Notes under the pieces: model-generated
Database searches by the model: none
What the model was told of the DNA's origin: nothing
The model's input: only the letters and a program-made list of their open reading frames with translations
Position numbers and translations under genes: made by a program
Assembly (NCBI GenBank): GCA_015067255.1
Contig: SVMS01000022.1
Span: forward strand, 1-33,354
Length of the DNA: 33,354 nucleotides
Direction of reading: 5' to 3'
From: Oscillospiraceae bacterium
GTDB taxonomy: Bacteria; Bacillota; Clostridia; Oscillospirales; SIG519
Part shown: positions 23,411 through 27,268 of the stretch, in pieces
How positions within the stretch are numbered: the first letter of the stretch is position 1
Layout: every line of letters begins with the position of its first letter

Positions 23411-23488
23411 TTTTACAGACTGTCGAAAAAGGCACAGACCGCAGAAAAAGAAAAAATCATAAAGGTTTGAAGCTAATTTCACAAATGA

Positions 23489-23525
23489 TATAGGAAAGGA
23501 GTTTTTCTCTTTTCCTATATTTTTG
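23489..23525 (+). terminator. rpoBC operon terminator
   Basis: Thirteen-bp stem TATAGGAAAGGAG/CTCTTTTCCTATA (one G-U) with a five-base T loop, followed by TTTTTG. Strong intrinsic terminator 79 bases after the rpoC stop. Confidence 0.9.
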
Positions 23526-23579
23526 TTTTAAGGAAAATTCCGTATAAGAATACGTAATTTAAGTAAAATTTTTCTGCTT

Positions 23580-23725
23580 TCCGCCAATCCGCTCTCTAAC
23601 GTACCACCGTACGCCGACGAGAACGGATTGACGAAATCTGCACTCTTTTTGGACAGTCTTGCCATGGTGTCGAAAACCTTTCGACACCCTGAAAGCTCGC
23701 TTCAATTTGAAGCGAGCTTTTTTGC
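23580..23725 (+). repeat. Hairpin-rich intergenic element of unknown nature
   Basis: Three consecutive stem-loops fill this gene-free stretch. CAATCCG (23585-23591) pairs with CGGATTG (23624-23630) around an inner CGTAC/GTACG stem. GGTGTCGAAA pairs with TTTCGACACC (23666-23688). The last is a terminator-like hairpin, AAAGCTCGCTTC with GAAGCGAGCTTT, plus a T-run. Composition is more GC-rich than the flanks. It may be a small structured RNA with its own terminator, or a copy of a dispersed palindromic repeat; copy number in the genome would decide. Short reading frames crossing it on both strands look like shadows of the stems. Confidence 0.45.
23692..23723 (+). terminator. Intrinsic terminator at the end of the hairpin-rich element
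   Basis: AAAGCTCGCTTC and GAAGCGAGCTTT form a 12-bp stem with a five-base AT loop, followed by further T (six in a row counting the stem end). No coding gene lies directly upstream, which suggests an RNA product or read-through protection. Confidence 0.7.
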
Positions 23726-23781
23726 GCCTGCTGAAGATTGGAAATTTATACTTGATAATACAGTATAATTGTGGTAAACTA

Positions 23782-23954
23782 ATAGTTGCCAAACTAATTA
23801 AATATTTTATAACAAGCAAAAAAGCCAAGGGGTTAGTATATCTTTTGGTTAAGTTTTATTTGAGGTACCTAACGATATGAATTTGATAAAAATGCAAATT
23901 CCACAATGTTAGGTGCTTATTGTGCTTGTTATATTGTATTAGTTTGGCGACTAT
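23782..23954 (+). ncRNA. Candidate structured RNA: long nested inverted repeat before the LRR gene
   Basis: The outer stem pairs ATAGTTGCCAAACTAAT (23782-23798) with ATTAGTTTGGCGACTAT (23938-23954), 17 bp with one G-U. After an internal loop it continues as TATAACAAGCA (23808-23818) with TGCTTGTTATA (23923-23933). Inside are two hairpins: one at 23823-23850, and one pairing AGGTACCTAAC (23863-23873) with GTTAGGTGCTT (23908-23918), topped by GAATTTG/CAAATTC. In addition AAAAATGCAAATTCC (23888-23902) can pair with GGAGTTTGCATTTTT (23956-23970), a 15-bp possible pseudoknot. A TATAAT at 23764-23769 could be its -10. A terminator follows at 23972. It could be an attenuation leader, a free small RNA, or a small palindromic mobile element. 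Confidence 0.45.
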
Positions 23955-23971
23955 CGGAGTTTGCATTTTTT

Positions 23972-24002
23972 GTGCGTCTGCTTCGGTAGGCGCACTTTTT
24001 TT
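23972..24002 (+). terminator. UUCG-tetraloop terminator just upstream of the LRR gene
   Basis: GTGCGTCTGC-TTCG-GTAGGCGCAC: a ten-bp stem with two G-U pairs and a stable UUCG tetraloop, then seven T. It ends 29 bases before the ATG at 24032, between the structured region and the ribosome site TTGGAGGG. It is either the end of a small RNA or an attenuator for the downstream gene. Confidence 0.88.
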
Positions 24003-24031
24003 ATCTAAAATTATTTTGGAGGGTTTTTAGT

Positions 24032-27000
24032 ATGAGTATTTTCAAAAACATCAAGCACTGTATTTCTCTTTTGCTGTGTGTTGTATTGCTTGCAACACTT
24101 ATGCTTATAGGTATATTTTCCGTCAGTGCGGAAAACGAAGGATATTATACCTATACAGTATCAAACGGAAAGGCAACTATAACAGGTTGCGATGAATCGA
24201 TAAGCGGAGATGTTACTATCCCCTCAACCTTAGGCGGTTATCCTGTTACAAGAATAGGAGATTATGCATTTTATAATTGCGGAAGTCTTACAAGTATAGC
24301 TATCCCCGATAGTGTTACAAGTATAGGTGAAGGTGCATTTTCTTATTGCGGAAGTCTTGAAAGTATAACCATTCCTGACGGTGTTACAAGTATAAGTGAT
24401 TTTGCGTTTCATTTTTGCTCTATCCTTACAAGTATAACAATTCCCGACAGTGTTACAAGTATAGGGGAACAAGCATTTGGTGGGACAAGACTTACAAGCA
24501 TAACAATCCCCGAAAGCGTTACAAGTATAGGGCGTGCTGCGTTTAGTAGTTGCAGAAGTCTTAGGAGCATAACAATTCCCGAAAGCGTTACAAGTATAGG
24601 TGATTATGCATTTAGCAATTGCACGTGTTTAACATCAGTTTTTTATAAAGGAACGACTCAGCAAAAAAATTATATGGAGATAAGTCTTAAGAATAATGAT
24701 ATTTTTATAAATACTATTTGGCATTATAAAGTGGAAAATGCTATTTTTGATAATGAAAATTGCATTTATTGTCCCGAATGTAATGATTATTTTTTGTCTA
24801 ACGGAAAATCTGTTGCAACAAAATATTATTCGTATTTTTTTACAGACGGAGAAATAACTATATACTATGTCGATCCGTCAATATCGGGGGATGCAACAAT
24901 CCCCTCAACATTGGACGGTTATCCTGTTACAGCTATAGGAGAATATGCGTTTTATAATTGCGATAGCCTTACAAGTATAACAATACCCGAAAGCGTTACA
25001 AGTATAGGTGATTCTGCGTTTTCTGCTTGCTCAAATCTTACAAGCATAACAATCCCTGACAGTGTTACAAGTATAGGTGATTTTGCGTTTAGATATTGCG
25101 AAAGTCTTGAAAGTATAACTATTCCTGATAGTGTTACAGAGATAGGTGATTCTGCGTTTGCTGCTTGTTCAAGTCTTGAAAATGTATATATAGAGAATAT
25201 AGTTGCTTGGTGTAACATTGATTTTTATAATGAGTACTCAAACCCGTTATATTTCGCTGATTATTTATATCTTAACGGAGAATTAATAACAAAACTTGTT
25301 ATTCCGAATGACGTTACTACCATACCTACATATGCTTTTTCGTGCAAAAATATTACGAGCATAACAGTTTCCGACAGTGTTACAAGCATAGAAAAATATG
25401 CTTTTTATGATTGTTCAAATCTTGAAAGCATAACCTTGCCGTTTGTCGGCGCTTCACAGGGAGAAACATCTAATACGCATTTTGGTTATATTTTTGGTGC
25501 ATCAATTGACTCTTGGATGGACTCATTTATTCCAAAATCACTAAAAAAAGTTATATTGACTGATGAATGTGTAATTATAAACGGCGGTGCATTTTCTAAT
25601 TGCGAAAATCTTGAAAATATAATAATTTCTGACAGTGTTACAAGTATAGGCGAGTATGCGTTTTTTAATTGCTCAAATCTTAAAAGTGTAACAATCGGTA
25701 ACGGCGTTACAAGTATAGGCGAGTATGCGTTTTATTATTGCGAAAGTCTTGAAAGTATAACCTTGCCGTTTGTCGGTGCTTCACAGGGAGGAACATCTAA
25801 TACGCATTTTGGTTATATTTTCGGCGCATCAAGTTATTCTTATAATGATGATTATGTACCGTCATCACTTAAAAATGTTATATTGACCGATAAATGTACA
25901 ACTATAGATGATAATGCGTTTAGATATTGCGAAAGTCTTGAAAGTATAATAATCGGTAACCATGTAACAAGTATAGGCGAGTATGCGTTTTTTAATTGCT
26001 CAAATCTTAAAAGTGTAACAATCGGTAACGGCGTTACAAGTATAAGCTCTTCTGCATTTTATGATTGCATAAGTCTAAAAAGTATAAATGTAAATTCAAA
26101 TAATACCTCGTATACTTCCAACGATGGAGTTTTATTTAACAAAGATAAAAGTCAAATAATCTGCTATTCTGCAGGTAAAACAGCATCATCATATACAATC
26201 CCTGACAGTGTTACAAGTATAGGTGATTTTGCGTTTAGATATTGCGAAAGTCTTGAAAGTATAACTATTCCTGATAGTGTTACGGAGATAGGTGATTCTG
26301 CGTTTGCTGCTTGCTCAAGTCTTGAAAATGTATATATAGAGGATATAGCTGCTTGGTGTAATATTGATTTTTATAATGAGCACTCAAATCCGTTGAATTA
26401 TGCTAATTATTTATATCTTAACGGTGAATTGGTAACAAGCCTTCTTATTCCTGACAGTGTTACAAGTATAGGCGATTATACTTTTTATAGTTGTTCAAGT
26501 CTTGAAAGTATAACAATCCCCGATAGTATAACAACTATAGGTGAGGAAGCGTTTTATTATTGCATAGGTCTTACAAGCATAACTATTCCTGATAGTGTTA
26601 CAGAGATAGGGGATTATGCATTTTCTGCTTGCTTTGGACTTACAAGAGTAACAATCGGTAATAGTGTTAAAAGTATAGGAAATTGGGCGTTTTTTAATTG
26701 CTCCAGACTCACAAGCATAACAATACCAAGCAGTGTTACAAGTATAGGTAATGGGACATTTTACTGGTGCTACGAACTTACAAGTGCAAATATTAATAAT
26801 GGCGTTATAAGTATAGGTGATATGGCTTTTTATGGCAGCGGGCTTACGGATATAACAATACCAAATAGTGTTATAAGTATAGGTGAAGCAGCTTTTCTTG
26901 ATTGCGATGCTCTTACAAAAATAATAATAGGAAACGGTACTACAAGTATAGGTTATTATGCGTTTTCTGGTTGCCATGTATTGAAAGATGTATTCTATTC

Positions 27001-27268
27001 GGGAACAGAGGAAGAATGGGGAAATATTTCGATAGATGAAGGCAACAACTATCTAACAAATGCTAATATCCATTACAACTACACAGAAAATGAAGCTGTT
27101 GAGGGCGACACTAACGGCGACGGAGAGGTAAATGTACTTGATGCTATCAGTATGAGAAACGGCTTATTAGGAAAAGAAGCTGAAAGCGAAATGTCAGATA
27201 TGAACGGAGATTCAGTTTTTGATATTTATGATTTGCTGATACTCAAGGCTTTGATTTTTAAAAAGTAA
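24032..27268 (+). CDS. Secreted BspA-like leucine-rich-repeat protein with C-terminal dockerin-like module
   Basis: A 1,078-residue exported protein. A signal peptide covers residues 1-33 (hydrophobic LLLCVVLLATLMLIGIF, cleavage likely after VSA). From about 40 to 1010 it is made of 23-residue LRR_5 repeats of the type IPDSVTSIGDYAFYNCSSLTS, the BspA/Treponema pallidum class used in surface adhesion and carbohydrate or host contact. Residues 1024-1078 hold two calcium-loop motifs, DTNGDGEVNVLD and DMNGDSVFDIYD, the duplicated pattern of a type I dockerin, suggesting attachment to a cohesin scaffold. Repeat units are nearly identical at DNA level in places (see 25051/26197 and 25421/25748). 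The ribosome site TTGGAGGG precedes the ATG; a structured region and terminator precede that. Binding partner unknown. Confidence 0.88.
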   Translation: MSIFKNIKHCISLLLCVVLLATLMLIGIFSVSAENEGYYTYTVSNGKATITGCDESISGDVTIPSTLGGYPVTRIGDYAFYNCGSLTSIAIPDSVTSIGEGAFSYCGSLESITIPDGVTSISDFAFHFCSILTSITIPDSVTSIGEQAFGGTRLTSITIPESVTSIGRAAFSSCRSLRSITIPESVTSIGDYAFSNCTCLTSVFYKGTTQQKNYMEISLKNNDIFINTIWHYKVENAIFDNENCIYCPECNDYFLSNGKSVATKYYSYFFTDGEITIYYVDPSISGDATIPSTLDGYPVTAIGEYAFYNCDSLTSITIPESVTSIGDSAFSACSNLTSITIPDSVTSIGDFAFRYCESLESITIPDSVTEIGDSAFAACSSLENVYIENIVAWCNIDFYNEYSNPLYFADYLYLNGELITKLVIPNDVTTIPTYAFSCKNITSITVSDSVTSIEKYAFYDCSNLESITLPFVGASQGETSNTHFGYIFGASIDSWMDSFIPKSLKKVILTDECVIINGGAFSNCENLENIIISDSVTSIGEYAFFNCSNLKSVTIGNGVTSIGEYAFYYCESLESITLPFVGASQGGTSNTHFGYIFGASSYSYNDDYVPSSLKNVILTDKCTTIDDNAFRYCESLESIIIGNHVTSIGEYAFFNCSNLKSVTIGNGVTSISSSAFYDCISLKSINVNSNNTSYTSNDGVLFNKDKSQIICYSAGKTASSYTIPDSVTSIGDFAFRYCESLESITIPDSVTEIGDSAFAACSSLENVYIEDIAAWCNIDFYNEHSNPLNYANYLYLNGELVTSLLIPDSVTSIGDYTFYSCSSLESITIPDSITTIGEEAFYYCIGLTSITIPDSVTEIGDYAFSACFGLTRVTIGNSVKSIGNWAFFNCSRLTSITIPSSVTSIGNGTFYWCYELTSANINNGVISIGDMAFYGSGLTDITIPNSVISIGEAAFLDCDALTKIIIGNGTTSIGYYAFSGCHVLKDVFYSGTEEEWGNISIDEGNNYLTNANIHYNYTENEAVEGDTNGDGEVNVLDAISMRNGLLGKEAESEMSDMNGDSVFDIYDLLILKALIFKK
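25051..25285 (+). repeat. Long intragenic duplication, copy 1
   Basis: About 235 bases that recur at 26197-26431, exactly 1,146 bases (382 codons) later. The first ~85 bases are identical and only scattered changes follow. The segment encodes SIGDFAFRYCESLES through NVYIENIVAWCNIDFYN and YLYLNGEL, a non-LRR insertion unit embedded between repeats. The match indicates recent in-frame duplication or gene conversion. Confidence 0.85.
25421..25505 (+). repeat. Short intragenic duplication, copy 1
   Basis: Encodes ITLPFVGASQGETSNTHFGY and IFGAS; a near-identical copy lies at 25748-25832, 327 bases (109 codons) downstream, with only a few base changes. This insert module within the LRR array separates canonical repeats. 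Confidence 0.8.
25748..25832 (+). repeat. Short intragenic duplication, copy 2
   Basis: Second copy of the module at 25421-25505, in the same frame, followed by SSYSYNDDYVPSSLKN, which parallels SIDSWMDSFIPKSLKK after copy 1. Confidence 0.8.
26197..26431 (+). repeat. Long intragenic duplication, copy 2
   Basis: Second copy of 25051-25285. Differences are mostly single bases, such as TTACGGAG for TTACAGAG and GAGGATATAG for GAGAATATAG, increasing toward the 3' end. Confidence 0.85.

Follow-up and report, generated by a model that had tools for sequence, protein, structure and literature searches.

The interval between rpoC and a gene for a BspA-like surface protein in the window (the whole 33,354-nt stretch of DNA that was analysed) raises the question of what a long, structured RNA does immediately in front of an intrinsic terminator and a gene. 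The structured leader occupies positions 23786–24002, and its parts, with the promoter before it and the gene behind it, are collected in Table 1. A TATAAT-like box is found at a similar place in the leaders of relatives, starting exactly 10 nt before the RTGCC motif of P1 in 71 of 138. The first 500 amino acids of the product of 24032–27268 match LRR_5 (E 1.3e-111). The rpoC–leader interval (23411–23730) holds several more hairpins, and the features seen 5' of the leader include a terminator-like site at 23487–23521, an inverted repeat CAATCCG...CGGATTG near 23585–23632 and a T-tailed hairpin at about 23693–23722.

Table 1. Promoter, RNA elements and downstream gene of the leader (window coordinates).
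Feature	Positions	Strand	Basis or remark
Promoter: TTGATA (23752–23757), 17-nt spacer, extended -10-like TAAACT (23775–23780)	23752–23780	+	consensus scan
P1, 5' strand, GCCAAACTAATTA	23788–23800	+	expected RNA start just before it
P2, 5' strand	23808–23818	+	predicted fold of window RNA
P3 hairpin	23823–23850	+	predicted fold; variable among relatives
P4 arm with apical region; lower stem 23863–23873 / 23908–23918	23863–23918	+	predicted fold
P4a apical hairpin, GAATTTG (23879–23885) / CAAATTC (23895–23901), local competitor of the pseudoknot	23879–23901	+	covariation
Strand B of the pseudoknot, AAAAATGCAAATTCC	23888–23902	+	conservation, covariation, shuffles
P2, 3' strand	23923–23933	+	predicted fold
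P1, 3' strand; core TTAGTTTGGC at 23939–23948	23936–23948	+	covariation of the 13-pair helix
P1', alternative small hairpin, TAGT [TTGGCG] ACTA	23940–23953	+	mutual information, pairing counts
Linker GACTATC, conserved, from P1 to strand C	23949–23955	+	alignments
Strand C of the pseudoknot, GGAGTTTGCATTTTT	23956–23970	+	conservation, covariation, shuffles
Intrinsic terminator: stem 23972–23995 and T-run	23972–24002	+	window sequence; spacing in relatives
Ribosome binding site, GGAGGG	24018–24023	+	sequence
Downstream gene, encoding a BspA-type leucine-rich-repeat protein of 1078 aa with signal-like N-terminus	24032–27268	+	open reading frame

The leader belongs to a family. A DNA search found two further copies in its own genome and matches in 21 of 147 genomes, its own included, while covariance model R1 (47 sequences) recovered three copies in its own genome, together with three more weak matches, among which are ones on the opposite strand of the copies. 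Alignment A1 comprises 46 of 60 diverse selected sequences and the window, the other 14 having been omitted to keep the model small. In genome samples of increasing breadth, R1 gave hits in 112 of 394 genomes at the level of the order, in 69 of 391 at that of the class (some of them also belonging to the order) and in 2 of 299 at that of the phylum; of these last two, one is the own genome and the other a weak hit (E 8e-4). The model also weakly matches the antisense strand, the leader rod being strongly self-complementary; at the E 1e-10 cut-off used for alignment A4, 9 such antisense matches contained in A3 fall away. Some of the family searches covered 100 source sequences of loci. The element is often present in several copies, up to six per genome among the matches listed. 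The conserved pattern occurs in at least 118 stretches of named genome records, and the 80 that were listed are all metagenome-assembled genomes, mostly with Clostridia or Oscillospiraceae in their titles.

Two forms can be distinguished. The long form, to which the window copy belongs, consists of the stem P1–P2, the hairpin P3 and the arm P4 with its apical hairpin P4a; the short form is about 130 nt long and lacks the P3 arm, and its strand B (TAAAAATGC...) has a T-rich strand further upstream as its local partner. Both forms retain P1, the linker, strand C and the terminator. Three loci (L048, L198 and L261) carry tandem pairs of elements a few hundred bases apart, each element with its own promoter and terminator. 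In L130, on the minus strand upstream of the element, a AACTATCGGG stretch is followed by a TTCG-loop terminator with no recognisable leader, and looks like a decayed second copy. A long-form copy also lies before a lipoprotein-like gene on an IMG/VR contig (L157, 5397–5577, minus strand), which is filed as viral and may be a prophage or a misfiled piece of chromosome. A phage or plasmid origin of the family was considered and rejected: one IMG/VR contig, one 54-nt match in one phage record and no plasmid were found, and an exact 21-base pattern had no match in viral contigs.

A sequence-only reading of the window had proposed that strands B and C pair over 15 bp, and both segments lie exactly at the positions of Table 1, forming 15 contiguous pairs with one G·U (23899·23959); as that reading also held, the pairing leaves the terminator stem untouched. 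The complementarity might be thought a chance product of a region of A and T runs, as 5 of the 15 pairs set an A-run against a T-run. The probability of this is practically negligible, since a helix of at least 15 pairs that joins the last 20 bases to the remaining sequence appeared in 0 of 1000 dinucleotide shuffles of 23786–23970 (maximum 14), and the conservation and covariation of B:C among relatives refute it. Covariation of B against C in related genomes was the check that the reading had proposed, and it came out in favour of the pairing, which is kept in the long form and covaries in the short form. In 101 long-form relatives, B and C are paired in 99.6% of 1407 cells; shifting the partner out of register by one, two or three columns lowers this to 23–58%. 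Counted alongside P1, the 15-pair helix is 99.5% paired, and the two helices counted jointly are paired in 98.6% of 2796 cells. Variation in the long-form helix is modest, changes on both sides being seen in 9 cells (1.4 in shuffles).

Judged by these alignments, the short form is a stronger test of selection on B:C than the long form. Its alignment A5, made without regard to structure, contains 58 of 61 sequences (L268, L239 and L200 were omitted); in it B:C is paired in 92.0% of 741 cells, and double-sided changes affect 6 of the 13 pairs, amounting to 37 cells where shuffles give 18.4. One pair is G-C in 36, A-U in 14 and G-U in 7 of the 58 sequences, and the column pair 132/223 is unpaired in 22 of 58. 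When strands C were swapped between sequences and energies compared, a short-form sequence's own strand C won 1878 of 2358 non-tied comparisons and beat the swapped mean in 51 of 60 sequences, whereas in the long form it won only 3385 of 5181 and stood above the swapped mean in 110 of 138. The losers include L274 as well as L200 and L239, which were counted in this test and neither of which beats the swapped mean; L239 has lost strand B. The full B:C helix is kept in L272, L202 and L240 despite quite different sequences, and the spacing between B and C varies little (55.5 nt, sd 4.1). The pairing crosses helices P1 and P2, which are themselves present, and is thus predicted to be an H-type or long-range pseudoknot; it is the conserved core of the leader family and is under selection.

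In the long stem of the leader, P1 comprises 13 pairs, of which 9 change on both sides in 101 sequences (97.6% of cells paired). Its conserved end is C23948, and this bears on the junction with strand C, for which a one-base gap and, from it, coaxial stacking of the two helices had been claimed. The one-base gap depends on extending the stem by ATAGT/ACTAT, where relatives have a conserved 7-nt linker, GACWATC, instead, and coaxial stacking loses its footing with it, as the linker intervenes and part of it is able to form a small hairpin of its own. ATAGT (23782–23786) falls after the -10-like box and before the expected RNA start and is not kept in relatives; the extension is probably outside the RNA, because what precedes GCCAAAC in relatives is promoter sequence. 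Mutual information points to a second alternative helix, P1', in which TWGT pairs with ACWA across a TTGGCG loop (126 of 138 sequences, those with clear anchors). In the long form P1' is paired in 98.3% of 404 cells, its varying pair being A-U in 39, U-A in 39, G-U in 17 and unpaired in 6 of 101 sequences; in the short form, 98.7% of 229 cells are paired with little variation. P1' and the inner part of P1 are mutually exclusive, and this second conserved exchange probably takes part in the switch, a tertiary contact being the other possible reading of the covariation. A compensation of stem lengths between P1 plus P2 and P4 was also considered; because some sequences lack a predicted P3, the split between the two is confounded, and no geometric claim is made from it.

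The first exchange concerns strand B itself. The local GAATTTG/CAAATTC hairpin, proposed by the sequence-only reading as a competitor of the pseudoknot, is present as P4a and is itself conserved and covarying in relatives, with 97.0% of 701 cells paired and 6 of 7 pairs changing on both sides in the long form. In the short form, the upstream strand makes a better match with its own B than with a B from another sequence in 1688 of 2260 comparisons; of the two helices that B can form, B:C is the stronger in 49 of 58 sequences. By energy estimates for 127 long-form sequences, the stem with the pseudoknot averages 9.5 kcal/mol below the best nested fold before any pseudoknot penalty, which would bring the two modelled states near balance. 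A fully nested fold in which B:C replaces P1 and P2 was rejected, being about 20 kcal/mol worse on average and never better in the 127 long-form and 58 short-form sequences. The five-T run in the 5' arm before P4 is a separate observation: it occurs in 111 of 126 long-form relatives (39.9 expected by shuffling) and not in the window copy. Such a run might base-pair with strand B, in the manner of the short form, or take part in a triple helix.

The energy advantage before the penalty also suits a different reading, in which the pseudoknot is a fixed structural part, for example a protein-binding or processing site, that undergoes no exchange, and a bound protein or a modification of the polymerase controls the terminator, as in processive antitermination. 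The terminator data agree with this reading to the extent that no base-paired coupling to the terminator was detected, but a fixed pseudoknot would not need the competitor's own covariation at 6 of 7 pairs in the long form, and we regard it as quite unlikely.

Terminators were recognised in 123 of 126 relatives, and in 122 of these 123 the gap between strand C and the stem is 0–2 nt. Mutual information shows no coupling of the stem with any column upstream of it, the best score being 0.076 as against 0.857 for P1. An antiterminator helix sharing bases with the terminator was therefore rejected as a candidate, there being no such coupling among the upstream columns, and the earlier statement that the pairing is no direct antiterminator holds. 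Since no antiterminator strand was found, the coupling of the pseudoknot to termination is drawn from geometry, and we infer that the pseudoknot may act in this way on the adjacent terminator.

The position of the gene behind the terminator is likewise narrow. Among the 124 of 138 elements with enough downstream DNA, 79 have an open reading frame (ORF) preceded by a ribosome binding site within 40 nt of the terminator, as compared with 5 of 213 other terminators of the same loci. So short a gap leaves hardly any space for another promoter, and read-through is the expected route into the gene. A promoter, a structured RNA, an intrinsic terminator and a gene predicted to be reached by read-through are, on sequence grounds, all the parts of an attenuator leader. 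No such ORF lies within 400 nt in 14 of 124 long-form copies or within 260 nt in 14 of 61 short-form copies, some of the latter for lack of sequence.

The downstream genes are skewed towards exported proteins. Using simple regular expressions on the N-termini of 97 genes starting within 60 nt, lipobox-like starts were found in 30 and signal-like starts in 51, against 17 and 57, respectively, of 429 other ORFs, all of at least 100 aa; among the downstream genes of at least 100 aa, the counts are 29 and 50 of 80. In the own genome, all three copies precede exported-looking proteins: two of these, one of them the BspA-type protein of the window, begin alike (60% identity), and the third has a lipoprotein-like start. 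The genes behind the short form are similar to those behind the long form. Of 116 downstream proteins (119 less the doubtful ORFs L086, L127 and L130), 12 match LRR_5 and 7 a zinc ribbon, and no shared pathway was found among them. An anti-phage defence theme was rejected, as the 116 proteins include 7 PADLOC families with at most 2 members each.

These gene data bear directly on the main rival of a conditional-termination leader, namely that the promoter-to-terminator unit is the whole gene of a free-standing small RNA which acts in trans or binds a protein, the genes behind being read by leakage. Such an RNA would account for the promoter and strong terminator of each copy, for the tandem and multiple copies (up to six per genome among the matches listed, as above) and for the 14 of 61 short-form copies that have no close ORF; it is unlikely, however, in view of the tight gap to an ORF with a ribosome binding site (79 of 124 versus 5 of 213) and the skew of the downstream genes to exported proteins.

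The element is probably a cis-acting leader that has a promoter of its own and ends in a conditional intrinsic terminator, that is, an orphan riboswitch-like attenuator serving mostly genes for exported proteins. Comparison of the relatives' sequences shows both helices of strand B, the fixed spacing of the terminator, no detected pairing to it and a gene just behind. Under the proposed mechanism, strand B would be common to two exclusive helices, the apical hairpin with GAATTTG and the 15-bp pseudoknot with C, and some signal (a ligand, an ion or a protein) would shift the balance between them. With B:C formed, a rigid helix would abut the base of the terminator and hinder closing of its hairpin, so that the polymerase would read into the gene, and with B held in the apical hairpin the terminator would work; the opposite direction, in which the pseudoknot favours termination, is about equally probable. 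A bolder version can be put forward tentatively and is somewhat doubtful: the leaders would form a new class of sensor RNA controlling a multi-copy regulon of surface proteins and lipoproteins in uncultured gut Clostridia, in which two coupled exchanges (hairpin to pseudoknot and P1 to P1') set or remove a rigid helix at the terminator base without an antiterminator, the arrangement possibly being held in place by a U·A-U triple helix that involves the 5'-arm U-run.

Such a leader would be an RNA regulator that is widespread among largely unculturable bacteria and apparently without a name, and the proteins that it regulates would face the host and other microbes. It offers a clean test case for asking whether termination can be governed purely geometrically, by a neighbouring helix that has no bases in common with the terminator, and the two forms and many copies are ready-made natural variants.

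As compared with Rfam 15, the window has no match at the gathering threshold and nothing relevant on the leader at E values up to 10, and the relatives give one tRNA and otherwise only chance-level matches; membership of a known Rfam 15 family (riboswitches, T-box, 6S and others) was rejected for want of a covariance-model match. A study of human gut bacteria (Fremin and Bhatt 2021; PMC8040213) describes thousands of unnamed candidate structured RNAs, cis-acting ones included; the parts of it consulted name no such motif, and the leader may be an anonymous entry in its supplementary tables. A literature search by motif strings and topic found nothing that names the leader, such an unnamed table entry in PMC8040213 apart. 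The leader family, present in many uncultured gut bacteria, is apparently undescribed.

Cyclic di-GMP riboswitches of Clostridia occur in several copies per genome before surface-protein genes, and the leader resembles them in being multi-copy and in standing in front of such genes. It differs in having no Rfam match and in that GGDEF is often missing from the genomes bearing it: GGDEF has no match in the own genome at E 1e-10 and is found in 43 of 112 element-bearing genomes (absent from 69) as compared with 167 of 282 others, counts uncorrected for phylogeny. Cyclic di-GMP is thus an unlikely signal. The processive antitermination RNAs put and EAR act on distant terminators, whereas the terminator here lies 0–2 nt behind the pseudoknot and no EAR-like Rfam match was found; what they have in common with the leader is a leader RNA that affects, or is here predicted to affect, termination with no antiterminator strand in the terminator. 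The ZTP, fluoride and preQ1-I riboswitches are pseudoknots with an intrinsic terminator behind them, some of whose bases also belong to the aptamer. The present leader differs from them in having no detected pairing with the terminator, no Rfam match and no pathway shared by its downstream genes, and is like them in its leader position, in the 3' strand of its pseudoknot being the last element before the terminator and in the predicted read-through into the gene behind.
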